From Bacillota bacterium (lineage in GTDB: Bacteria > Bacillota > UBA4882 > UBA10575), in the NCBI GenBank assembly GCA_012735195.1, contig JAAYIC010000062.1, positions 1 through 37,733 of the forward strand: a DNA stretch of 37,733 bases, read 5' to 3'. Below, one piece after another: positions 4,381 to 37,733 of the stretch (position 1 is its first letter; the number at the start of each line of letters is the position of its first letter). A program made the position numbers and the translations under genes. The notes below the pieces were generated by a model. It had not been told where the DNA came from and ran no database searches. It saw nothing but the letters and a program-made list of their open reading frames with translations.

Positions 4381-4680
4381 TAGATATAAGTAGACCCTCG
4401 TGAGGGGGAGGTTATCCCTCCCTCTCTCTCTCTCATAGGTACAAACAGGTCTTTGTGAAGGAGGGGGCCCCTCCTAAATATAGGGATGAACAGGTGGAGG
4501 AGGGGGTCCCTCCTTCCTATAGAGATAAACCGGTGAGAGGAGGGGGCCCCTCCCTCTTATAGAGATAAACCGGTGAGAGGAGGGGGCCCCTCCTTCCTAT
4601 AGAGATAAACCGGTGAGAGGAGGGGGTCCCTCCCTCTTATAGAGATAAATAGGGAGAGGAGGGGTTTTTTATCTCTCCGG
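4381..4680 (+). repeat. tandem 40-bp hairpin repeat array
   Basis: Six consecutive units with an exact 40-bp period begin at 4441, 4481, 4521, 4561, 4601 and 4641. A longer degenerate unit (4381-4440) lies upstream. The three best units share AGAGATAAACCGGTGAGAGG, and each full unit centres on a GGAGGGG(G)CCCCTCC inverted repeat (or GGTCCC variant), so the transcript could form a row of GC hairpins. The last unit is diverged, and AGAGATAAA (4641-4649) pairs with TTTATCTCT (4668-4676). There are no unique spacers, so this is not a CRISPR array. The preceding 4295-4380 contains no gene I can support. Confidence 0.9.
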
Positions 4681-4685
4681 AAAAG

Positions 4686-5540
4686 GTGGAACGGGTCGCT
4701 CTTTCTTTTTTAGCTGTAGTACAGCTTTGGGCCTTGTGGGCCAGATCCTATCTGCACCCCTTACTATTCTTCACCCATTTTACCTGGGATTACGGCCTGC
4801 GGCTCCTCTTCTTTCTGCTGGTTTTTACCGGCCGGTACCATATTTTCCATGAATACCGGCGCCCGGGAATACTGGCGGCGGCCTTTATAACCGGTTTTAC
4901 TGGGTGCTCGGCTTTTTACCTGATTTTTCAGCGGCCGCCCGGTGAAGAATGGTATCTGGCGGGTTTGGCCGTAATTGATTGTGCGGTACTGGCGGTTTTT
5001 TCCGGGGTTATCATTGAGTTTGTTGCCGTTATCACTGGAGAGCTTTGGAGAAAAGAGAAACCCTTTGGCTATGACCTTACTTCGCCAGGACAGCGGTTTT
5101 TAGCAGCTGAAAAGGGTTTGACCACCCATTTGCAGCTTACCCTCTATTTGGTTCCCTTGCTCTGCCTGGCTCTCTATGCTTTGCATACCCGTTATATCTT
5201 TGATTGGACCTTCTATACCCATGCGGCGGTCATCTTTCTTTTCCTCTTTTTCCTCCTGCCCCTCTTCCGGCTGCAGGTCCGTTTGCGGGAAGCAGCCGCT
5301 CCGGAACGGCAAGCAATTGCCGAAAGATTGATTTATCTACGGACCTGCATGGCGCCTTCTCTTTCCACGCCTTCTGCCGCCGGTTGCCGTGAAGAAATTA
5401 CTATGCTCTGTATCTACCATGATTTCCTTCTTTCCTCAGCCGCCCTCCCCTGGCACTGGGATAATTTGCTGGCTCTCACCGGCGGTTTTCTCTTGCTCTT
5501 CTCCCAACCCGCCCTTGCCCGGTTATTCTTAGCAAGTTAA
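4686..5540 (+). CDS. unknown polytopic membrane protein
   Basis: I do not recognise this 284-residue protein. It has about six to eight hydrophobic segments: residues ~5-30, 36-48, 62-80, 92-118, 150-165, 175-197 and 257-280. A polar stretch (~198-235) precedes the last ones. Basic clusters (RYHIFHEYRR, RLQVRLRE) mark inter-helix loops. The frame is open only from 4653, and the first usable start is GTG at 4686 with a weak ribosome site, so translation may be low or the start may be misplaced. It begins directly at the end of the 40-bp repeat array, between pheT and zapA. Confidence 0.6.
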   Translation: MERVALSFLAVVQLWALWARSYLHPLLFFTHFTWDYGLRLLFFLLVFTGRYHIFHEYRRPGILAAAFITGFTGCSAFYLIFQRPPGEEWYLAGLAVIDCAVLAVFSGVIIEFVAVITGELWRKEKPFGYDLTSPGQRFLAAEKGLTTHLQLTLYLVPLLCLALYALHTRYIFDWTFYTHAAVIFLFLFFLLPLFRLQVRLREAAAPERQAIAERLIYLRTCMAPSLSTPSAAGCREEITMLCIYHDFLLSSAALPWHWDNLLALTGGFLLLFSQPALARLFLAS

Positions 5541-5559: not shown

Positions 5560-5644
5560 GGTATTTCGTGCGCGTATCATATTCTTGTCGATACAGAACT
5601 GTACTTCTTTTATAATCCGGTATTTCGTACGTGCGCGCGTATCC
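5560..5644 (+). repeat. direct repeat with alternating purine-pyrimidine core before zapA
   Basis: GGTATTTCGT followed by a CG-rich alternating run and TATC occurs at 5560-5579 and again, with 6 extra bases, at 5619-5644 (TACGTGCGCGCGTAT at 5628-5642). A TATAAT (5611-5616) lies between the copies, but its best -35 candidate, TTGTCG (5585-5590), is 20 bp away. Confidence 0.5.
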
Positions 5645-7089: not shown

Positions 7090-7142
7090 CCGTGGCGCAT
7101 AGTACCAGTGGTTATGGAGGTATATTAGTTAGAAGGAGAGGG

Positions 7143-14264: not shown

Positions 14265-15203
14265 ATGGACCCGGTTGTTCATATTCCGGTTTTACCCGGA
14301 GAAGTAATGAGGTATCTCGCCCCGGCGGCCGGTGAAATCTTCGTTGACGGGACCATCGGCCTGGGCGGTCATGCCTCGCTGCTTGCCGGGAAACTGGGTC
14401 CTTCAGGCACTCTCCTCGGGATCGACCTGGATGCATCAGCCCTGGCCAAAGCCGGGGAAAATTTATCTTTTTTCCCCGGCCGTTTAATTCTCCGGCAAGG
14501 AAACTACCGGGATCTGCCAATTTTTCTTGAAGAAGAAGGGTTGCCTGCTCCCGACGGTATCCTTCTTGATCTCGGGGTCTCTTCTTTACAGCTGGACCAG
14601 GGGAACAGAGGCTTTTCCTATTGGGAAGATGCGCCTTTGGATATGCGGATGGATCCTTCCCAAAATTTCACCGCTGCGGATCTGGTGAACAGAGCAAGCC
14701 GGGAAGAGTTGCACCGGATTATCCGGGAATACGGGGAAGAACCATGGGCGGCAAGGATCAGTCAATTTATCGTCAATGAACGGCGAAAAAACCCGATTTT
14801 AACCACCCATCACCTGGTGAAGGTTATTAAAGCAGCCGTTCCGGCGGGCGCCCGCCGGCGGGGTCCGCACCCGGCCCGGCGAACTTTTCAAGCCCTACGG
14901 ATCGCCGTCAATAAAGAACTGGAATCATTGGAAGCCGGTTTGGCGGCGGGCATCAGGTGCCTGGCTCCCGGGGGGAGAATGGCGGTAATCTCCTTTCATT
15001 CTCTTGAGGATCGCTTGGTGAAACGGACCTTTCAAAAAATGGCCCGCAAGTGTACATGTCCACCGGGGTTTCCTGTTTGTTGTTGCGGCGGCGGCCCCGG
15101 GATCGAGATCCTGACCAGCCGGCCGGTAACACCGTCAGCGGAGGAAACAGCCGGAAACCCCAGATCCCGCAGTGCAAAATTGAGGGCTGTCCGTAAACTC
15201 TAA
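14265..15203 (+). CDS. rsmH: 16S rRNA (cytosine1402-N4)-methyltransferase
   Basis: RsmH uses S-adenosylmethionine to methylate C1402 of 16S rRNA. The 312-residue length is typical. Visible motifs are HIPVLPGEVMRYL, FVDGTIGLGGHASLL (SAM-binding glycine loop), GILLDLGVSSLQLDQGNRGF, PLDMRMD, a HPARRTFQALRIAVNKELE segment and VISFHSLEDRLVKRTF. The C-terminal part contains a Cys cluster (CTCPPGFPVCCCGG). The ATG follows TTAAGGAGG. Its place between mraZ and ftsL is the classical order. Confidence 0.97.
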   Translation: MDPVVHIPVLPGEVMRYLAPAAGEIFVDGTIGLGGHASLLAGKLGPSGTLLGIDLDASALAKAGENLSFFPGRLILRQGNYRDLPIFLEEEGLPAPDGILLDLGVSSLQLDQGNRGFSYWEDAPLDMRMDPSQNFTAADLVNRASREELHRIIREYGEEPWAARISQFIVNERRKNPILTTHHLVKVIKAAVPAGARRRGPHPARRTFQALRIAVNKELESLEAGLAAGIRCLAPGGRMAVISFHSLEDRLVKRTFQKMARKCTCPPGFPVCCCGGGPGIEILTSRPVTPSAEETAGNPRSRSAKLRAVRKL

Positions 15204-15235
15204 ATTGGTCTACCACCGGATGAGGAGGCATAAAA

Positions 15236-16018
15236 ATGTTAGCAGCAAAGAATGGAGAAGCGTACCACACGTACCCGGCCAACCAAGAAACACGGATAAA
15301 TACACAACAGGCGCCTTATGCATCGCACGCGCGTCCACACATGCACCAAGTGGGCATTAAAGCCGGACCGGGCAAGGGTTCGTATGCGTCGTACGCACAC
15401 GCACCCCACACACACGCACGCGCACACACAAAAGCATGCGCGAACCCGGCTGATCATTCCCGGGTGAGCGACGCAGGCGATACCTCGTACACGTCATGCG
15501 TACGGGCAGACGCTCGCGGGCGCACACGCGCCAATGACAAGCGGGCACATATGTGCGCGCATCAGGCTCCACGCGGGGTAAAAATCCGGAAAACCTACAG
15601 ACTGAAGATAAATAAAAAGAAACTGCTAGGCAGGGTTCGCATTGTCGCTTTCTTGTTCCTTTTAATGACTGCTAATATTTTGGTCCAAGCTATGCTCGCC
15701 CAGAGCCAGCACAGGTTGGCGGTAGTCCGTGGCGAAATAGAGGAAATGGAGAAAGAAATCGGCCGGCTCCAGTATGAGTTGGCGGATCTCAGTTCCAGTC
15801 AGCGGATTGAGGTTATCGCCGTTAATGTTTTGGGGATGAAACCCGCAGAAAACGACGGCCGGCAGTTGCTGGCTTATACACCGGCACTTTCGGAAACACC
15901 GGAGATCACCCTGTTCATGCAGGCCCCCGCTTACTTGGGAATGGAGAGGGGGGTACTGCAAAAGGTGGCGGATTGGCTTTCCGGGGCCGGACGGGTTATG
16001 GCCGACCCGGGTTATTAG
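15236..16018 (+). CDS. ftsL: FtsL-like division protein with ~105-residue low-complexity N-terminal extension
   Basis: Residues ~134-260 are a bitopic FtsL-type protein. A basic segment (YRLKINKKKLLGRVR) precedes one membrane helix (~134-154), a coiled coil (~157-188, VVRGEIEEMEKEIGRLQYEL) and a periplasmic-type tail. FtsL joins the FtsQ/DivIB-FtsB/DivIC complex that controls septal wall synthesis. Ordinary FtsL proteins are ~90-130 aa. Here ~105 extra residues rich in His, Ala, Thr and Arg are encoded by alternating CA/CG/TG DNA (about 15380-15560). The strong GAGGAGG site before the first ATG supports translation of the extension; an internal ATG at 15551 has only a weak site. Position between rsmH and the PBP supports the name. 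Confidence 0.8.
   Translation: MLAAKNGEAYHTYPANQETRINTQQAPYASHARPHMHQVGIKAGPGKGSYASYAHAPHTHARAHTKACANPADHSRVSDAGDTSYTSCVRADARGRTRANDKRAHMCAHQAPRGVKIRKTYRLKINKKKLLGRVRIVAFLFLLMTANILVQAMLAQSQHRLAVVRGEIEEMEKEIGRLQYELADLSSSQRIEVIAVNVLGMKPAENDGRQLLAYTPALSETPEITLFMQAPAYLGMERGVLQKVADWLSGAGRVMADPGY
15370..15566. repeat. alternating purine-pyrimidine (CA/CG/TG) low-complexity tract inside ftsL
   Basis: Long runs of strictly or nearly alternating purine-pyrimidine bases (for example 15401-15431 and 15543-15563) with CACACA, CGCACG and CGTACG steps, separated by short ordinary stretches. Such DNA favours left-handed (Z) helix under negative supercoiling. Similar tracts recur elsewhere in the window. 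Confidence 0.75.
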
Positions 16019-16040: not shown

Positions 16041-18167
16041 GTGAATTTAAAAGGGGTCCTGATTATAAAGAAAAGAATCACCATGCTTTTTTTGTTGGTC
16101 TTTGCCGGTGTTACCGTCTTGACCGGGCGGCTCTTTTTCATTCAGGTCATAAGAGCCGGCTATTACCAGCAAATAGCTGAAGACCAGCGTTTACGGGATA
16201 TCCCTCTCCAACCCAAACGGGGGATTATTTTCGACCGTAATCACCGGCCTTTGGCCATGAGTTTTAATGCCGACTGTATCTATGCAATCCCGGCGCAGGT
16301 TAGAGAGGCAAAGGAAACGGCAAAGACTGTCGCCGGGATTTTAAATATGCCGGAAAAGCGGGTTTATAGCCTCCTCACACGGAATCTTTCCTTTGTCTGG
16401 CTGAAAATGAAAGCCACCCCGGAAGAGGCGGATTTGATCCGCCGTGCCCGTCTGCCGGGGATTAAGGTGATCCCAAAAGCGCAGCGCTTTTATCCCCAAG
16501 GGAAGCTGGCTGCTCAGGTCTTGGGGTTTGTCGGTATTGACAATCAGGGTTTGGAAGGATTGGAAAGATATTACGATGCGCACCTGCGGGGTATTCCCGG
16601 GAGCCAGCAGGCTGAATTTGACTCCCGGGGGCAGAGCATTCCTTTGGGAGAACGGCGTTACATCCCGCCCCAGGACGGATCCAGCATCGTTCTAACGATT
16701 GATGAGCGCATTCAACACATTGCCGAACGGGAACTGGAAAAAGCCGTGCTGGAACAGGGGGCGAAACGCGGGACGATTATCGTCATGGACCCCATGAACG
16801 GGGAGATCCTGGCGATGGCTTCATTCCCCGGGTTTGATCCCAACAGCTATCAGGAGTACCCGGCCGCCCTCTGGCGGAACTGGGCAGTAACCGACCAGTA
16901 TGAACCGGGATCTACCTTTAAAATTCTTACCGCCGCCGCTGCTTTGGAAGAGGGGATTGTCCGTCGGAATTCGGTGTTTTTTGACCCCGGTTATATAATG
17001 GTCGATAAAGCCCGCTTAAGTTGCTGGCGGGCCGGTGGCCACGGCCGGCAGACTTTCCTTGAAGCCACGGAAAACTCCTGTAACCCGGTCTTCGCCACTT
17101 TGGCTTTACGCCTGGGGAAAGAAAAACTCTATTCCTACCTGGAGGCTTTTGGGTTCGGTTCCCGCAGTGGCATCGATTTTCCCGGTGAAGGACGGGGGAT
17201 CGTTCCCCCGTTAGCACGGGTGAAAAATGTCGAATTGGCGACGATCGGTTTTGGCCAGGGGATCTCCGTCACCCCGCTCCAATTGCTCCAAGCTTTGTCG
17301 GTTATTGCCAACGGCGGCTGTCTGCTCCAACCCCGGTTGGTCCGGGAAGTCCGTTCCCCCGGCGGCGAAGTGGTGGAAAAATATGAAAAGAAAGTAATCC
17401 GCCGGGTGATTTCCCAAGAAACCGCCAAAGAAACCGCTTTGCTCCTGGAATCCGTGGTTGAGCACGGGTCGGGAAACCGGGCGCAGATCCCCGGTTACCG
17501 GGTGGCGGGAAAAACCGGTACTGCCCAGAAACCGGTGGGCGGCATCTACGGAGCGGAACGCGTGGCATCGTTTTTGGGTTTCAGCCCGGTGGAGAACCCC
17601 CGGGTGGCGGTTATTGTGATCCTTGATGAACCGCAGGGGCTGGTGAAGTACGGAGGGGTGATTGCCGCTCCGGTATTTGCCGCGGTAGTCCGTGATATCC
17701 TTTATTACCTGGGCGTGCCTCCGGAAGTCCCCCAAAAGCAAAGCACGGGCCCGGAAGCGCTTGCGCGGGATGAAACCACCCTCAGGTCCGTCCCTAATCT
17801 CCTCCGCCTTACGCGGGCGGAAGCCAGAAAGATCCTCACCCGTGCCAATTTATCCTGGCGGGAATTGGGAGAAGGAGATTACGTGATGGAGCAGAATCCT
17901 AAAGCAGGGGCAATGGTGCCACCGGGAACAACGATCCTCCTTTATTACAATGAAAAGGCAAAGTACAATGTGAAGAATGAACCGTTGGTTCTGGTGCCCG
18001 ATCTAACCGGGCTCTCGGTGGAAAAGGCCGGCAAGGTCTTGCAGAAGATGGGCTTAAAGATGGTCCCCCACGGCGCCGGCCTAGCGGTCAAGCAGATTCC
18101 GGCTGCCGGAACTCGTTTGGGTTTGGGGATGACGGTCAACGTCTATTTCCTGGAAGCCGGGATGTAG
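16041..18167 (+). CDS. spoVD: class B penicillin-binding protein (FtsI/SpoVD) with two PASTA domains
   Basis: A septal transpeptidase cross-linking peptidoglycan outside the membrane. It has one N-terminal membrane helix (~12-34), a PBP dimerisation domain (PKRGIIFDRNHRPLA), and the transpeptidase domain with STFK (S291-K294), SCN (S346-N348) and KTG (K491-G493), followed by two PASTA repeats (~590-650 and ~655-708). At 708 residues with PASTA it matches SpoVD or PBP2b/FtsI; only one such gene is in the cluster, so it may serve vegetative division, spore cortex or both. The start is a GTG with a weak G-rich site; ATG at 16083 is an alternative. An 89-bp gap with a GC hairpin (18170-18185) separates it from murE. 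Confidence 0.92.
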   Translation: MNLKGVLIIKKRITMLFLLVFAGVTVLTGRLFFIQVIRAGYYQQIAEDQRLRDIPLQPKRGIIFDRNHRPLAMSFNADCIYAIPAQVREAKETAKTVAGILNMPEKRVYSLLTRNLSFVWLKMKATPEEADLIRRARLPGIKVIPKAQRFYPQGKLAAQVLGFVGIDNQGLEGLERYYDAHLRGIPGSQQAEFDSRGQSIPLGERRYIPPQDGSSIVLTIDERIQHIAERELEKAVLEQGAKRGTIIVMDPMNGEILAMASFPGFDPNSYQEYPAALWRNWAVTDQYEPGSTFKILTAAAALEEGIVRRNSVFFDPGYIMVDKARLSCWRAGGHGRQTFLEATENSCNPVFATLALRLGKEKLYSYLEAFGFGSRSGIDFPGEGRGIVPPLARVKNVELATIGFGQGISVTPLQLLQALSVIANGGCLLQPRLVREVRSPGGEVVEKYEKKVIRRVISQETAKETALLLESVVEHGSGNRAQIPGYRVAGKTGTAQKPVGGIYGAERVASFLGFSPVENPRVAVIVILDEPQGLVKYGGVIAAPVFAAVVRDILYYLGVPPEVPQKQSTGPEALARDETTLRSVPNLLRLTRAEARKILTRANLSWRELGEGDYVMEQNPKAGAMVPPGTTILLYYNEKAKYNVKNEPLVLVPDLTGLSVEKAGKVLQKMGLKMVPHGAGLAVKQIPAAGTRLGLGMTVNVYFLEAGM

Positions 18168-19774: not shown

Positions 19775-21167
19775 ATTTACAGTCCATGAGATCCTCGAAG
19801 CAACCGGGGGGAAGCTTTTGGTCGGCAAGCCCGACGCCCGCGTTTCCGGCGTGGGAACGGACAGCCGGACCATCCGGCGGGGAGAGGTTTTTCTTGCTCT
19901 TCGCGGTGAAAAATACGACGGGCATGATTTTACCGCCCAGGCAGTAGCCGGCGGCGCCGGCGTCCTGGTGGTCGAGGAAAAGCCGGAGATGGCTTTCCCG
20001 CCTGAAGTAGCCGTGGTCCAGGTGGCGGATACCCTTACCGCGCTGGGACGGTTGGCCGCCTGGCACCGGCAGCGCTTTTCCATACCGGTAATTGGGGTCA
20101 CGGGCAGTAACGGGAAAACCACCACCAAAGAGCTTCTTGCCGCTCTTTTGGCCCAGAGGTTCCAGGTGGTAAAAAATGAGAAGAACTATAATAATGAGGT
20201 CGGATTGCCCTTAACCCTATTGACCCTGAAGAGTGATACGGAAGTTATCATCCTGGAAATGGGGATGCGCGGGGAAGGGCAGATCGCTTATTTGGCCGGG
20301 ATCGCCCGCCCGACGGTGGGTGTGATCACCAATGTCGGCCACAGTCACCTTGAGCTTTTGGGTTCTCAGGAAGCCATCGCCCGGGCGAAGGGAGAACTTA
20401 TTGCCGCTCTGCCCCGGAACGGGCTGGCGGTTTTGAACGGGGACGACCCGCGGGTACGACTGATGGACCGGCTTTTCCCCGGAGTCTCTCTTTTTTATGG
20501 TCTCGAAGGGGACGGGCTGGATCTCCGGGGGAGCGCCCGTTCTGTTGCCGGCGGGCAGGAAGTGACGGTTACCGGAAAGTGGGGAGATTTCACCTTCTTT
20601 CTTCCTCTCCCCGGCCGGCATAATACCGCCAATGCCCTGGCCGCAACCACGGCGGCGCTCACTTTTGGCCTTACTGCCCGGGAGATCGCCACGGGCATGA
20701 AGAACCTGCCGCCCTTGGAAAAAAGGTTGCGGATCATGGAAGAGTATGGTTTGACCATAATTGATGATACGTATAATGCCAGCCCGCAGTCGGTTCAAAC
20801 AACCCTGGAGGTACTGGGCGGGATGGAAGGAAAACGGAAAATTGCTGTTCTCGGCGATATGTTGGAATTGGGAGAGTTCAGCGCCGCCGCCCACCGCAAA
20901 GTCGGTGAAAGCCTTGGTGATCATGGCTGTTCAGCTCTTTTTGCCTATGGGCCCATGTCGGCCGGGACCGCGGACGCGGCTGCGGCGGCAGGGGTTTTTA
21001 GCCGCCATTATGCAGAGCAGGAAGCCTTAATCCGGGATTTACGGGCTTATGTGGCAGAAGGTGACATCCTTCTGGTAAAGGGTTCCCGGGGAATGAAGAT
21101 GGAAAGGGTAATCCAGCAGTTGCTTAAGGAATTAGCCGAAGTATTCAGGGAGGAAGAGAAGAAATGA
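19767..21167 (+). CDS. murF: UDP-MurNAc-tripeptide:D-Ala-D-Ala ligase
   Basis: MurF completes the UDP-MurNAc-pentapeptide by adding D-Ala-D-Ala. At 466 residues it is of normal length. Motifs include GVGTDSRTIRRGEVFLALRG in the N-terminal domain, the ATP loop GVTGSNGKTTTKELLAALL, KNYNNEVGLPLTLL, ILEMGMRGEGQI, ITNVGHSHLELL and IDDTYNASPQSV. The ATG follows TTAAAGGAGA inside the end of murE. Its last 4 bases overlap mraY (ATGA), indicating coupled translation. Confidence 0.96.
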   Translation: MAEFTVHEILEATGGKLLVGKPDARVSGVGTDSRTIRRGEVFLALRGEKYDGHDFTAQAVAGGAGVLVVEEKPEMAFPPEVAVVQVADTLTALGRLAAWHRQRFSIPVIGVTGSNGKTTTKELLAALLAQRFQVVKNEKNYNNEVGLPLTLLTLKSDTEVIILEMGMRGEGQIAYLAGIARPTVGVITNVGHSHLELLGSQEAIARAKGELIAALPRNGLAVLNGDDPRVRLMDRLFPGVSLFYGLEGDGLDLRGSARSVAGGQEVTVTGKWGDFTFFLPLPGRHNTANALAATTAALTFGLTAREIATGMKNLPPLEKRLRIMEEYGLTIIDDTYNASPQSVQTTLEVLGGMEGKRKIAVLGDMLELGEFSAAAHRKVGESLGDHGCSALFAYGPMSAGTADAAAAAGVFSRHYAEQEALIRDLRAYVAEGDILLVKGSRGMKMERVIQQLLKELAEVFREEEKK

Positions 21168-23397: not shown

Positions 23398-24669
23398 GTG
23401 GAACGCTTGGAGATTGAGGGCGGTTACCCTTTGCGGGGTGAGGTCCCAATCAGCGGAGCAAAAAATGCGGTATTAAAATTGATGGCCGCTTCGCTCCTGG
23501 CCGAAAATGAATGCATCATTAGAAATGTTCCCCTGATAAAAGACGTATTAACCATGATCGAGGTCTTGCGAAGCCTGGGGGCTGAAGTTTCCTGGGCGGA
23601 CCACGCGGTCCTGCGGATAATTCCCCGGAAGGATTTGGGCTATTCCGCCCCGGATGAGCTTGTGCGGGAGATGAGAGCCTCCGTACAAGTCATGGGCCCT
23701 TTGCTCTCCCGGATGAGGAAGGTTAAACTCTTCCAGCCCGGTGGGTGTGTGATTGGGCAACGCCCGATCGACCTCCATCTAAAGGGGTTTCAGAGTCTCG
23801 GCGCCGAAGTGGTGGAGGAACATGGCTATATTTATGTGCAAGCCGACGAACTCCACGGGGCCGATATCCATCTGGACTTCCCCAGTGTGGGAGCGACGGA
23901 GAATATCATGGCTGCCGCCATTTTGGCCAAAGGCGTTACTGTAATCCGTAATGCCGCGAAAGAACCGGAAATTATTGAGGAACAGAATTTTTACAACCGT
24001 TTGGGAGCGCATATCCGGGGCGCCGGAACCGATATGATCCGGATTGAAGGTGTTAAAGCCCTGCGTTCCATCCCCATAGATTACACGGTAATTCCCGACC
24101 GCATTGAGGCCGGCACCTTTATGCTGGCGGCGGCGATTGCCAAAGGTGAGGTCCACCTGAAAGAGATTATCCCGGAACATTTGGAGTCATTGACTGCCAA
24201 ATTGAAAGAGGCCGGTGTGGAAGTACAGGTAAAAGAGGAGAGCATTAAGGTTAAGGCTGATAAACGTTTGCGGGCGGTGGATGTTACTGTCCTTCCTTAT
24301 CCGGGCTTTCCTACGGATCTGCAACCGCAGATGACAGCGGCCCTTGCGTTGGCGGAGGGGACTAGTTTGCTCACGGAGAATGTTTTTAGCGGCCGTTTCC
24401 GTTATGTCGATGAATTGGTGCGCATGGGCGCCAATATCAGGGTGGAGGGGAGGAGCGCCGTAGTAAAAGGAGTACCCCGCTTTACCGGGGCGGCGGTGGT
24501 CGCACCGGACCTGCGGGCAGCTGCAGCGATGGTTTTGGCGGGTTTGGCCGCTAAGGGCGAAACCATTGTCGAAGGAGTGGATTTGTTGGACCGCGGTTAC
24601 GAAAAATTTGAGGAGAAGTTGGGTTCCCTTGGGGCCCGGATTAAGCGTGTGGTTACGGATCACGGATAA
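23398..24669 (+). CDS. murA: UDP-N-acetylglucosamine 1-carboxyvinyltransferase
   Basis: MurA transfers enolpyruvate from PEP to UDP-GlcNAc, the first committed step of peptidoglycan synthesis and the fosfomycin target. The 423-residue product shows PISGAKNAVLKLMAASLLA, the active-site loop PGGCVIGQRPIDLHLKG with Cys at about residue 117, VGATENIMAAAILAKG, TVIPDRIEAGTFMLAAAI and PGFPTDLQPQMTAALALA. The catalytic Cys is present, so fosfomycin sensitivity is expected by family knowledge. GTG start, 7 nt after GGAGGTG. Its presence directly after ftsW is uncommon; murD or murG would be expected there. Confidence 0.97.
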   Translation: MERLEIEGGYPLRGEVPISGAKNAVLKLMAASLLAENECIIRNVPLIKDVLTMIEVLRSLGAEVSWADHAVLRIIPRKDLGYSAPDELVREMRASVQVMGPLLSRMRKVKLFQPGGCVIGQRPIDLHLKGFQSLGAEVVEEHGYIYVQADELHGADIHLDFPSVGATENIMAAAILAKGVTVIRNAAKEPEIIEEQNFYNRLGAHIRGAGTDMIRIEGVKALRSIPIDYTVIPDRIEAGTFMLAAAIAKGEVHLKEIIPEHLESLTAKLKEAGVEVQVKEESIKVKADKRLRAVDVTVLPYPGFPTDLQPQMTAALALAEGTSLLTENVFSGRFRYVDELVRMGANIRVEGRSAVVKGVPRFTGAAVVAPDLRAAAAMVLAGLAAKGETIVEGVDLLDRGYEKFEEKLGSLGARIKRVVTDHG

Positions 24670-24884
24670 AACAATTTGGTATTCATCATTACAACGAAGA
24701 GAAAGGCCAGAAGCCTCCAGATAGAGACTCCTGTCTTCCTCTTGCTGGGGACAAGTTGCCGGCTGTGCGTACGTGCGCGGCGCCCGTTTCGGTGGGATAA
24801 GTTTAAGGAATATTTTCCGGACGGGATCGTAACATTTATATAGAAAGTGGGTATACGCGCGTGCGCGAACAGTAAGGAGGGAGC
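24670..24884 (+). other. intergenic region with two alternating purine-pyrimidine tracts
   Basis: The 215-bp gap holds no supportable gene. It contains strictly alternating tracts at 24764-24779 (TGTGCGTACGTGCGCG) and 24851-24867 (GTATACGCGCGTGCGCG), the second only ~8 bp before the ribosome site of the SPOR-domain gene. Confidence 0.6.
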
Positions 24885-25364
24885 ATGATGGAGAAACGCC
24901 GGGAAAGAACAAAGGCCTTGACAACCCTGTTGACCAAGATTGCCGGTCTGGTTTTCATGGCATTTCTTGCGATTTCGGTAGGAGTTATCTTTGGTACCCT
25001 TTATTATGATTGGGTGCGGGAAGGACCCTTAACTCCGGTGCAAAGCTGGAACGAGCAGATCCAAACCCCGCTGGCGTTTGAATTTCCGGAGAGCGAAGGG
25101 GTTTACGAGGAGATCTTTTCCACGCCGGAAGCCGCTGTGGAGACGGTGACAGTAAGATATAAAGTGCAGATCGGTCCCTACCAAGCACGGGAGGAAGCGT
25201 TACGGACCGCCGGCGAACTGGAAGAACAGGGCTATCCGGTATTCGTCAGTCAAGAACTTCCCTATTACGTTCAGGTTGGGGCTTTTGCCAATCCGGTAAA
25301 TGCCGACCGGCTAAAACGGGAATTGGGGAATAAGGGTTATCGTGCCTATATTAAAGAAGAATAG
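24885..25364 (+). CDS. membrane-anchored SPOR-domain protein
   Basis: The 159-residue product has a short basic cytoplasmic start, one membrane helix (~21-42), a linker and a C-terminal SPOR domain (~88-157, YKVQIGPYQAREEALRTAGE and YYVQVGAFANPVNADRLKREL). SPOR domains bind denuded glycan strands and are typical of division and sporulation wall proteins. The ATG (a second ATG follows immediately) sits after TAAGGAGGGAG. It lies between murA and the hydrogenase cluster, with its own gap on each side. Confidence 0.8.
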   Translation: MMEKRRERTKALTTLLTKIAGLVFMAFLAISVGVIFGTLYYDWVREGPLTPVQSWNEQIQTPLAFEFPESEGVYEEIFSTPEAAVETVTVRYKVQIGPYQAREEALRTAGELEEQGYPVFVSQELPYYVQVGAFANPVNADRLKRELGNKGYRAYIKEE

Positions 25365-30289: not shown

Positions 30290-32095
30290 ATGAAGCTGTT
30301 TCGAGCCCATGTTCTGATTTGCGGGGGAGCCGGTTGTATCTCCTCCGGCTGCCATGCGGTTAAAGAAGAGTTTATCCGCGAATTGCAAGCCCACGGGTTG
30401 GATGATGAGATCCAGTTGATCGAAACCGGCTGTGTCGGCTCGTGTGACCTGGGGCCAATCGTTATCGTCTACCCGGAAGGCGTCTTTTACCAGCACGTTA
30501 CTCCCGGGGATGTACAGGAGATCGTCAGTGAGCATCTGCTGAAAGGGAGATATGTAAAGAAAAAAATGTACCGGCATCCCTCCTCCGGGGAACCGGTCGT
30601 CTCCAGCAGAGAGATGGATTTTTTCCGTCACCAGACACGAATTGCCCTGCGCAATTTGGGATTGATTGATCCGGAGAGTATCGAGGAGTATATTGCCAGG
30701 GACGGCTATTTTGCCTTGGGGAAGGTCTTAAACGGGATGACCCCGGAAGAGGTCATCCAGGAGATCAAAGATTCCGGTCTCCGGGGCCGCGGTGGAGCGG
30801 GTTTTCCGACCGGTTTGAAATGGGAGTTCACGCGAAAGGCCGGTGGCGCGCGCGCGTGTGGGGAGAAATATGTGGTCTGCAACGCCGATGAAGGCGATCC
30901 CGGCGCCTTTATGGACCGTAGTATCCTTGAAGGCGACCCGCATTCGATTATTGAAGCCATGGCTATTGCCGCTTATGCCATCGGCGCCGGTCAGGGCTAT
31001 ATTTACGTGCGTGCCGAATATCCTTTGGCAGTTGCCCGGATGAAACAGGCCATTACAAAAGCACGGGAGTATGGCCTTTTGGGGAAAAATATTATGGGCA
31101 CCGGTTTTTCTTTCGACCTTGAGATCCGTGTCGGCGCCGGGGCTTTTGTTTGTGGTGAAGAAACAGCCCTGATCGCTTCGATCGAGGGCAAGCGGGGCGA
31201 ACCGCGGATGAAGCCGCCGTTCCCCGCTACAGCCGGACTGTGGGGGAAACCTACATTAATAAATAATGTGGAGACCTTTGCCAACATCCCAGTGATTATC
31301 CTCAAAGGGGCCCGGTGGTTTTCCCGGATCGGGACAGAAAAGAGCAAAGGGACAAAGGGCTTTGCCATTGCCGGGAATATAAACAATACCGGCCTTGTGG
31401 AGGTGCCAATGGGGACAACCCTGCGCAAGATCATTTTTGATCTGGGAGGAGGCATCCCTAACGGGAAGAGGTTTAAAGCCGCCCAAACAGGAGGGCCTTC
31501 CGGTGGTTGTTTGACTGAGAAAGATCTGGATACCCCCGTTGATTATGAATCGCTACAGGCCGCCGGTTCGATGATGGGGTCCGGCGGGCTGATTGTGATG
31601 GATGAGGATACCTGTATGGTTGATGTCGCCCGCTTCTTCTTAGAATTTACCCAGGACGAATCCTGCGGCAAGTGCGTCCCCTGCCGGATCGGAACAAAGC
31701 ATATGCTGGAGATTCTGACGCGGATCACGGAAGGCAAGGGCCAAGAGGGCGACCTGGAAACCCTGGAGGAACTGGCGGAGGTAATTGCCTCCTCTTCCCT
31801 CTGTGGCCTCGGCCAGACGGCGCCGAATCCGGTCTTAAGCACGCTGCGGAATTTCCGCGACGAATATGAGGCCCATATCAAAGAGAAGAAATGCCCGGCC
31901 GGTGTTTGCACCGCTTTGAAGCGGTATGAAATCATCCCCGACCTGTGCAAAGGTTGCGGTCTTTGCGCCCGGGTCTGTCCGGTACAGGCGATTGACGGCG
32001 TTCCCAGAGAGCCTTACCGGATTGACCAGGAGATCTGTAGCAAGTGTGGTTTGTGCCTGAGCAAATGCCCGTTTAAAGCGATCGTGACGAAATAA
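30290..32095 (+). CDS. hydB: HydB/NuoF-type NADH- and FMN-binding subunit
   Basis: A 601-residue flavo-iron-sulfur subunit. It has an N-terminal [2Fe-2S] thioredoxin-like domain (CGGAGCISSGC, ETGCVGSCDLGP), the NuoF core with the FMN/NADH loops GRGGAGFPTGLKWEF (from ~166) and CNADEGDPGAFMDRS (from ~197), GAGAFVCGEETALIASIEG, a [4Fe-4S] site ESCGKCVPCRIGTKHMLE, and a C-terminal 2x[4Fe-4S] ferredoxin (CKGCGLCARVCPVQAI, CSKCGLCLSKCPFKAI). It matches HydB of NAD(P)-linked bifurcating hydrogenases. An alternating GC run (30846-30860) encodes an odd GGARACGEKY segment just before the CNADEG loop. No hydA follows. Confidence 0.93.
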   Translation: MKLFRAHVLICGGAGCISSGCHAVKEEFIRELQAHGLDDEIQLIETGCVGSCDLGPIVIVYPEGVFYQHVTPGDVQEIVSEHLLKGRYVKKKMYRHPSSGEPVVSSREMDFFRHQTRIALRNLGLIDPESIEEYIARDGYFALGKVLNGMTPEEVIQEIKDSGLRGRGGAGFPTGLKWEFTRKAGGARACGEKYVVCNADEGDPGAFMDRSILEGDPHSIIEAMAIAAYAIGAGQGYIYVRAEYPLAVARMKQAITKAREYGLLGKNIMGTGFSFDLEIRVGAGAFVCGEETALIASIEGKRGEPRMKPPFPATAGLWGKPTLINNVETFANIPVIILKGARWFSRIGTEKSKGTKGFAIAGNINNTGLVEVPMGTTLRKIIFDLGGGIPNGKRFKAAQTGGPSGGCLTEKDLDTPVDYESLQAAGSMMGSGGLIVMDEDTCMVDVARFFLEFTQDESCGKCVPCRIGTKHMLEILTRITEGKGQEGDLETLEELAEVIASSSLCGLGQTAPNPVLSTLRNFRDEYEAHIKEKKCPAGVCTALKRYEIIPDLCKGCGLCARVCPVQAIDGVPREPYRIDQEICSKCGLCLSKCPFKAIVTK

Positions 32096-36510: not shown

Positions 36511-37733
36511 TTGGAACCACAGGGATTGTCGGGTTAATCCTTTACCTTGCCCTTATAGCGCTCAGTGTTTTTTGGTTGTATTCCCTGCAAAAAACAAGGA
36601 TAGCCCAGATCATCACGGCCTCTTCTCTCAAGCCGGACGATAAGATTTTTTGTACACCCGGAGGCTTGAAGTTAAAGAGAAGGAAAAGAAAAAAAGCCTC
36701 GCCTCTCCGGGTGGATGCGGCCCCGGGCGGCAGGGATCCCCCGGCTGTGACCAGGGACCCGGGCGATGCTCTTTCTTTTCCGGAGAAGACCAATGGCAAC
36801 AGGGGAAAACCGGTGGAAGGAACCCCGGATGAAAAAAAACCAGATGAAAGAAGACCAGATGAAAAAGTGCCGGATGAAAAAAGTTTAGATGAAAAAAATC
36901 CGGATGAAAAAAGGCTGGATGATGAAAATCCAGATGAAAAGAGTCCGGATGTTACAGGTGAAAAAAGCCCGGATGTTACAGGTAAGGGAATGCCAGTAGA
37001 GGAAAATCCGGTGGTTCAGGAAGAGGAAAAAGAGATAAATACACGTACACGTGGGCCAACAGATTCTGTTACAGAAGGCAGCGTGTACTGGAGCGGAGAA
37101 CACGGTACTCCGGAAAGCGCCTGCGAGTTACTGCCGCTGCACCCGGCGGCTCAAGCAAGAGGAGAAACCAATGGAACCGGAGAGACCGGAGTTCAAGAAT
37201 TACCGAAAGGAGGAGAGACCTTAATGGACCCTTTGGTGCGGGCCGAGGTGGTCATTGGTGAAGCGACAAAACAATTATTGATTGAGAGTAACCTTACCCT
37301 GTCTCAACCTGCCCTTAAGATCAGGAATATTACCGCGGAGATTCGCGATCTGACCACTGAATTGATTCCGGATAAAGTTATTATCCAGGGGTTGCTGCAC
37401 AAACAGATATTCTTCGTCGGTGAGGACAATATTGTCCACCACCAAACAGAGGAGGCGCCTTTCAGCACTTTTGTGGATGTCTTTGGCGCCGAACCGGGGA
37501 TGAATATCCAGATTCACCCGACAGTGGAAACAATCCTTTTTAACCTGCTTAATCCAACTTTACTCCATCAAAAAGTCGTCACCGAATTCTTTGTGAAAGT
37601 GACCGCACCCACGCAGATTAATATCAGGGAAGGAAACGGTCCACTGGTACGTCTGGATCAGGTAATTGGCGAAGCCACCAAGCAAGAGCTTTTGGAAAAC
37701 CTGGTTACCTTGGAGTCCCCGGCAATTAAGATC
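36511..37733 (+). CDS. membrane-anchored SPOCS (DUF3794) protein, frameshifted at start and cut by the window edge
   Basis: A TTG behind AGAAAGGGGGG starts EPQGLSG and then meets TAA. From 36531 the +2 frame is open without a stop to the window end, and one extra G in the GGG run at 36531-36533 would join the two. The joined protein has a membrane helix (GLILYLALIALSVFWLYSL), a very basic stretch (LKLKRRKRKK), a linker of repeated xPDEKx units (36832-36960), more Glu-rich sequence and a SPOCS domain from ~37318 (IPDKVIIQGLLHKQIFFVG, FGAEPGMNIQIHPTVE, FFVKVT). A second SPOCS repeat begins at the edge (PAIKI). If no frameshift exists, ATG 37224 with AAAGGAGGAGAG could start a shorter, unanchored protein. 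Confidence 0.75.

Follow-up and report, generated by a model that had tools for sequence, protein, structure and literature searches.

The window, i.e. the whole stretch of DNA that was analysed (37,733 nucleotides), belongs to the genome of an uncultured anaerobe (G000). It was compared with the genomes of two congeneric species, the sister G001 and the outgroup G002; these, like all genomes used here, are draft metagenome assemblies. The features discussed below are collected in Table 1. The genes rsmH, ftsL and that of a transpeptidase PBP follow each other in the order of the division/cell-wall cluster, which is the synteny expected of FtsL.

The product of the middle gene is FtsL, by synteny, by the NCBIfam model TIGR02209 and by alignment. 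Its score against TIGR02209 (E 1.7e-10, 40.7 bits) is just below the cut-off of 42.45, and among the four FtsL proteins scanned only that of G002 passes (45.9 bits). The Pfam matches are weak and both below their cut-offs (FtsL_2, E 0.0075; FtsL, E 0.011, scoring 16.2 against a cut-off of 22.9 bits).

Table 1. Coordinates of the features in the window.
Feature	Position	Strand	Evidence or remark
RY run	5626..5642		Stretch of poor conservation; start of a mechanical ORF at 5631
rsmH (mraW)	14265..15203	+	Synteny anchor; PF01795, E 6.5e-111
Ribosome-site region GGATGAGGAGGCATAAAA, 5' of the ATG	15218..15235	+	Identical across the three congeneric genomes
ftsL, 260 aa, ATG start	15236..16018	+	Synteny, TIGR02209, alignment
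Conserved N-terminal flank MLAAKN	15236..15253	+	Alignments; one more Ala in G001
Variable RY-rich insert, residues 7-110 (~104 residues)	15254..15565	+	Predicted disordered
Longest perfectly alternating run, 24 nt	15407..15430		
Alternating run, 18 nt	15545..15562		Overlaps a palindrome
Conserved FtsL core beginning APRGVKIRK	15566..16015	+	Predicted long helix, residues 127-186 (membrane and coiled-coil part)
Transpeptidase PBP with PASTA domains	16041..18167	+	3' of ftsL
RY run	24764..24779		Between genes; shorter in G001
RY run	24851..24867		Just 5' of a ribosome site; common to the three congeners, with 2 bp fewer in G002
RY run	30846..30860		Within ORF 30290-32095; 6 bp of the run missing in G001

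The ribosome site, the MLAAKN start and the flank APxxVKIRK are common to all three congeners, with one more Lys in the flank of G001. Furthermore, M1 and A4 are invariant in all ten aligned FtsLs, so the start at 15236 looks ancestral and the head would have been added downstream of it later. Translation from 15236 is supported by this conservation. As the conserved start and ribosome site are those at 15236, translation is unlikely to begin internally at 15551. It was correctly noted in the initial annotation that a strong ribosome site precedes the head and that the division part is intact, the conserved core from APRGVKIRK onwards being evident in the alignments.

The AlphaFold model from a shallow alignment of three sequences is weak (mean pLDDT 46.5). 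It contains helices at residues 127-186 and 238-251, the first with a block pLDDT of about 50-86, while residues 1-116 have a pLDDT below 50 and are predicted to be disordered. Judged from its residues, the long helix would be of membrane and coiled-coil nature.

A variable head made of alternating DNA

FtsL has 260 residues in G000, 192 in G001 and 169 in G002, and the RsmH proteins of the two other congeners are 96% and 92% identical to that of G000. In the other genera of the family FtsL is 159-170 residues long when counted from ATG (10 of 13 loci), and at the remaining three loci it is listed from an upstream GTG with 179-184 residues. The head is thus a variable insert between conserved flanks, the length of which changes across the three species. 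The extension described earlier is therefore extra sequence within the division gene, flanked by conserved residues on both sides, and the comparison with related N termini that had been proposed does reveal variation in length. Its richness in His, Ala, Thr and Arg is real, over about 104 residues (7-110): residues 7-115 include 21 Ala, 11 His, 10 Arg, 8 Thr and 3 Cys, and no Leu, Phe or Trp. No common ancestry could be seen between the alternating heads of G000 and G001 (local score 31, shuffle p 0.11), nor any internal duplication in the G000 head (score 20, null mean 25).

The DNA of the head alternates between purines and pyrimidines (RY) beyond chance, which is the mark of a Z-DNA-prone RY tract. 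The highest alternation over 300 nt in the window, 0.69, starts at 15260; the mean of the window is 0.43, and the maximum in 100 Markov-1 simulated windows is 0.55. The longest RY run is 24 nt, against at most 18 in the same simulations. The DNA is thus strongly alternating, as had been claimed, but it is not "almost pure", as only about 68% of the steps between 15270 and 15575 alternate. Neither does it consist of CA/CG repeats, since Tandem Repeats Finder detects no array in the head. Among the 250-nt stretches in about 1.0 Mb of G000, the head ranks third for alternation. The two stretches that outrank it are not in mechanical ORFs, apart from a 21-nt overlap of one with an ORF end, and the fourth is within a 111-aa ORF that may itself be a product of RY DNA. 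In this sample, ftsL is the most striking coding case of the RY pattern.

The ftsL frame is open in all three species. Among the six frames of the G000 head, only that of ftsL contains no stop codon, while the five others have 1-3 each. In the G001 head, four of the five other frames are also free of stops, as expected for short alternating DNA. The fraction of the residues VILMFCW is 9.4% in the ftsL frame of G000, compared with 17-18% in the two remaining sense frames and 34-51% in those of the opposite strand; the corresponding values in G001 are 10.5% and, for all other frames, 24-50%. At the level of codons, C/(C+T) is 0.86 at the second position in G000 and 0.69 at each of the other two, and in G001 it is 0.79, against 0.61 and 0.50. 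This depletion of T at the second position has a Fisher p of 0.008 for both species pooled and 0.029 for G000 alone. GRAVY fails to mark the ftsL frame: it is -1.07 in G000, where the two remaining sense frames have -1.05 and -1.01, and in G001, where the ftsL frame scores -0.86, a different sense frame is still more hydrophilic at -1.25. From the open frame and the bias between codon positions, selection on the protein seems to keep the head in frame and poor in hydrophobic residues. The choice of codons points to a drive at the DNA level, as GCA encodes 9 of the 21 Ala and ACA 5 of the 8 Thr of the head, whereas their fractions in the 15 mechanical ORFs of the window are 0.10 and 0.16. The head is probably translated, and would act as a passive disordered spacer ahead of the membrane helix.

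RY islands are found genome-wide

RY islands were defined by a score of 14 or more. Per 100 kb, there are 12.8 islands in G000 (30 in 234 kb; slightly inflated by the inclusion of the window, which was itself chosen for its island), 11.3 in G001 (35 in 310 kb, leaving out loci L103, L112 and L130, which had been picked for RY hits) and 10.0 in G002 (5 in 50 kb, a small sample). The density is 2.0 in other genera of the family (1 in 49 kb; 13 loci, all at rsmH, likewise a small sample) and 1.9 outside the family (1 in 54 kb; 14 loci). The phenomenon is thus not confined to ftsL; both RY islands and the RY insertions described below are found genome-wide.

Perfect RY runs of 24 nt are present in only 32 of 249 genomes of the phylum, and the two highest counts are those of G000 (22 overlapping sites) and G001 (18). 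In the third genome, all 16 listed sites belong to one GTAT microsatellite. It is followed by a genus in which three of five members have 7-12 sites, and then by another genus with 5 and 10 sites in its two members. The runs in these Bacillota, G148, G203 and G227 in one genus and G204 and G228 in the other, are of mixed sequence and are possibly independent cases. Among the nearest 29 genomes, 13 contain RY runs of 20 nt, with 53 sites in G000, 60 in G001 and 3 in G002; G005 and G017 both have 15. Long RY runs are thus few in G002, which also has the shortest head of the congeners.

Islands between ORFs are over-represented (11 of 30 in G000 and 19 of 35 in G001, where such DNA makes up 12.5% and 11.8% of the bases) and islands in the interior of ORFs are depleted (14 of 30 and 13 of 35, for 74.5% and 76.4% of the bases). 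This fits removal by selection. There is no enrichment in the first and last 25 codons (5 of 30 and 3 of 35 islands; 13.1% and 11.8% of the bases). These positions refer to mechanical ORFs, some of which were perhaps created by the RY DNA.

The islands, about 60% G+C overall, are not made of repeats. Over 92 islands, the identity at lag 2 is 0.470, compared with 0.460 in pattern-preserving shuffles (z 1.5), i.e. there is no excess, and once the alternation is given, which purine (A or G) and which pyrimidine (C or T) fills a position is nearly random. There is some preference for CG and TA steps over CA and TG, and TA and AT steps are over-represented given the composition (observed/expected 1.2). 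Not one of the runs of at least 18 nt, 25 in G000 and 15 in G001, is a pure dinucleotide repeat. The sets behind these values, as well as the indel and island-likeness sets below, include stretches that were picked for RY hits. The simple-sequence expansion proposed in the initial annotation therefore finds no counterpart in the DNA, which has no tandem array, no excess at lag 2 and no pure dinucleotide among the long runs of G000. Palindromes are mildly enriched anywhere in an island, with a best arm of 5.8 on average instead of 5.1 (z 4.6).

Nor do the islands appear to be a mobile or miniature repeat family, such as a MITE or a palindromic element, as they are barely more alike than shuffles: among 50 islands of G000, the top local score is 18, against 15-16 in four shuffles, and the mean is 7.87, against 7.63-7.81. 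No shared motif was seen in their flanks. The two best flank matches are between neighbouring islands at one place (at ftsL and at L157), and the third has a score of 15.

Insertions seen against empty sites

The genomes of G000 and G001, which diverge by 11.6%, were aligned over 37 collinear stretches (253,745 aligned bases). A gap was considered well-flanked if identity was at least 60% in the 25 columns on each side, which holds for 176 of the 522 gaps of at least 6 bp. Among well-flanked indels of 8-60 bp, 11 of 113 are at least 90% alternating, while 0.14 would be expected from random segments of equal length. These 11 have 89% G+C, compared with 49% for gaps with an alternation below 0.7, and a few of them are located within genes. 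When the limits are relaxed to a length of 8 bp or more and an alternation of 0.8 or more, 15 of the 176 flanked gaps are retained, 12 of them inserts in G001 and 3 in G000, and the length is a multiple of three in 6 of the 15, i.e. at chance level. An earlier filter of 70% flank identity, applied to four regions, gave 6 of 54 indels with an alternation of at least 0.85.

Three inserts in G001, at window positions 7127, 21134 and 24642, are read as gains in G001 because neither G000 nor the outgroup G002 has them. Those at 21134 and 24642 are near the 3' ends of ORFs, and that at 7127 is just 5' of a likely gene start. The empty sites at 7127, at 21134 and at position 4970 of locus L197 contain no seed repeat; near the empty site at 24642 there is a short GCGCG. 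At L072 (8574-10307), a 577-aa ORF of G000 without Pfam matches at 1e-5 contains in-frame RY inserts of 9 and 18 bp that are absent in G001.

When the islands of both genomes are counted, 43 of 79 entries have a counterpart in the sister from which 20% or more of the island is absent. Some shared islands differ almost wholly by transitions, with the alternation retained. The ratio of transitions to transversions in shared islands (95/47, compared with 20473/8907 overall) is uninformative, since shared islands are pre-selected.

Origin of the head

We suggest, with modest confidence, that the head arose as a side effect of an insertion process that is specific to this lineage and makes RY DNA, and that the head is tolerated by the tail of FtsL. 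All along the chromosome, and strongly so in G000 and G001, short alternating tracts would be inserted and then lengthen; the pattern of tracts is what the genomes display, and from it we infer that some enzymatic activity inserts them. Selection would then filter where the inserts persist. All three stop codons (TAA, TAG and TGA) are of the form YRR, so strictly alternating DNA is free of stops in any frame. Inserts of this kind therefore close reading frames less often than random DNA does, which helps to explain how ftsL stayed open while its head grew. The disordered and variable cytoplasmic N-terminal tail of FtsL could have acted as a sink for the insert between MLAAKN and APxxVKIRK, which would have reached about 104 residues in G000 and fewer in the sister species. 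A stronger claim, that the genus has a mutational process inserting new, essentially untemplated DNA with RY alternation as its main rule, and that the FtsL head was born in this way, we put forward only tentatively.

Three candidate explanations at the level of enzymes were rejected. Loss of mismatch repair at the level of MutS1 is not indicated, as MutS1 is above the cut-off in 27 of 29 genomes, including G000-G002 (at a looser E-value MutS is found in all 29, MutS2-like matches included). End-joining by Ku (above the cut-off in 27 of 29) and PolX, whose thumb domain is found in 20 of 29 genomes with a match in G001 and none in G000, do not fit the island density. Among MutS1, Ku and the PolX thumb, no enzyme tracks the islands in these 29 genomes.

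Several observations sit uneasily with the insertion process. The recent inserts have far more G+C (89%) than the islands (about 60%), so one process may not explain both. G001 holds 12 of the 15 listed inserts, yet the longest ftsL head is in G000, and neutral insertion alone would not predict the conserved island at 24851. The absence of island enrichment at gene ends, together with a hydropathy that does not mark the ftsL frame, slightly weakens this explanation.

Alternatively, the tracts could be kept for the form of the DNA, flipping into Z-DNA and thereby absorbing supercoiling or pacing transcription, also at the 5' end of ftsL. Alternating RY DNA is the classical type of sequence prone to form Z-DNA, according to the available part of PMC4060949. 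The island at 24851, adjoining a ribosome site and conserved in three congeners, would agree with such a role, as would those of the shared islands that differ by almost nothing but transitions and keep alternating. However, TA and AT steps are poor Z formers and are over-represented rather than avoided (1.2), at least a fifth of the island is missing in the sister for 43 of 79 entries, and inserts also occur within an unrelated gene, the 577-aa ORF; selection on DNA form is therefore unlikely. We regard it as improbable, too, that short CG or CA repeats expanded by microsatellite slippage and then drifted by transitions that preserve the alternation. Transitions do preserve the RY pattern, the recent small inserts are indeed CG-rich (89% G+C), and some insertion sites are flanked by short GC or RY stretches, e.g. 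the G001 site at 24642. Against slippage, the head has neither a tandem array nor an excess at lag 2, none of the 40 long runs is a pure dinucleotide repeat, several empty sites lack a seed and MutS1 is present in G000-G002; moreover, to randomise the repeats fully by transitions would need far more change than the 11.6% between the two genomes, unless islands mutate faster. An origin from tandem repeats is disfavoured on the same grounds.

It appears very unlikely that the His-rich head was acquired for a function, i.e. selected for binding a metal or a divisome partner. Its 11 His and 3 Cys in residues 7-115, the frame that is kept and the few hydrophobic residues would be in line with such a function, and the three-sequence alignment places a Thr-His pair (59-60) in the same columns for all three congeners. 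However, the number of His varies widely between the heads, 11 in G000 and 5 and 1 in the congeners (the last two counted by eye), codon choice follows the alternation of the DNA rather than the need of the protein, and the head is predicted to be disordered in the shallow three-sequence model. In the ten-sequence alignment, the pair of G002 falls elsewhere and is not aligned with 59-60; as it is aligned in one alignment and displaced in the other, there is no clear conserved metal site, and the metal binding imagined earlier is unsupported. Least probable of all is an assembly artefact, or an untranslated head with the real start downstream. The draft metagenome bins and the odd composition of the DNA could raise this suspicion, but the bins of three species, two of them perhaps from one study series, share the flanks and differ in the inserts, the ribosome site and start are conserved, and in G000 the true frame alone is free of stops.

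Relation to known systems

A genome-level excess of RY tracts limited to single lineages is a known kind of fact. According to the part of PMC4060949 available, alternating RY patterns are generally suppressed in prokaryotes and are over-represented in Treponema pallidum, T. paraluiscuniculi, Helicobacter felis, H. bizzozeronii and Thermofilum pendens. Our case resembles these in that the excess is specific to a lineage and missing from near relatives. It differs in that the available text deals with counts and positions in single genomes, whereas here insertions are compared with empty sites between species and a protein tail is involved. A long disordered N-terminus is also described for mycobacterial FtsL, in which 93-95 disordered residues precede the membrane helix (PMC9846249, in the part available). 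That part describes no origin from a DNA pattern, while the head studied here is made of alternating DNA and varies in length within a genus.

Rickettsia palindromic elements are inserted in coding genes and are copies of a repeat family. As with the head of FtsL, short DNA of a non-coding type is tolerated in frame within proteins; unlike them, the 50 islands compared here are about as dissimilar as shuffles. Template-free ("doodled") synthesis by polymerases in vitro yields mostly repetitive motifs, with CG repeats rare except for Taq (PMC13061963, in the part available). Doodled DNA is likewise made de novo, with strong neighbour preferences and self-complementary products. However, in that part of the source the products are repetitive and formed in vitro, and they have no link to these genomes. 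In the open-licence literature, no report was found in which RY insertions had been compared across species or a protein head was encoded by them, nor any on alternating RY expansion in Firmicutes coding DNA, and nothing on point was found on CG-repeat insertion, as judged by titles and the start of abstracts.

The larger finding is the genus-wide pattern of RY insertion, and the head would be captured DNA, neither simple sequence nor special to the divisome. The odd tail of FtsL looks like a symptom of a genome-wide process, not a special adaptation of the divisome. If true, this would be an instance in nature where an insertion process that is structured but not repetitive gives rise to coding sequence, with stop-free alternating DNA as a steady source of it. 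The question why Z-DNA-prone tracts, which are generally suppressed in prokaryotes, build up in some genomes would also become testable.

Other RY runs and repeats

Some RY islands lie close to the starts of genes. Those at L064 15228-15287 and L095 3072-3102 are at, or directly 5' of, the starts called mechanically for ymdB-like and ftsZ genes. As ORF calls run into RY islands, annotated starts may often be mistaken in genomes of this kind. RY islands also surround the mechanical start of a 449-aa ORF (L157 3709-3790), which is possibly another RY-encoded head. In the window, the runs between 24764 and 24867 are upstream of ORF 24885-25364, and the conserved run at 24851 is perhaps regulatory.

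The window also contains tandem repeats. About five copies of a 40-bp repeat are found between ORFs at 4455-4664; the repeat is mostly missing from G002, as is the neighbouring ORF 4686-5540. At 36828-36951, tandem repeats of 15/30/45 bp are rich in GATGAAAAA and contain indels between congeners.
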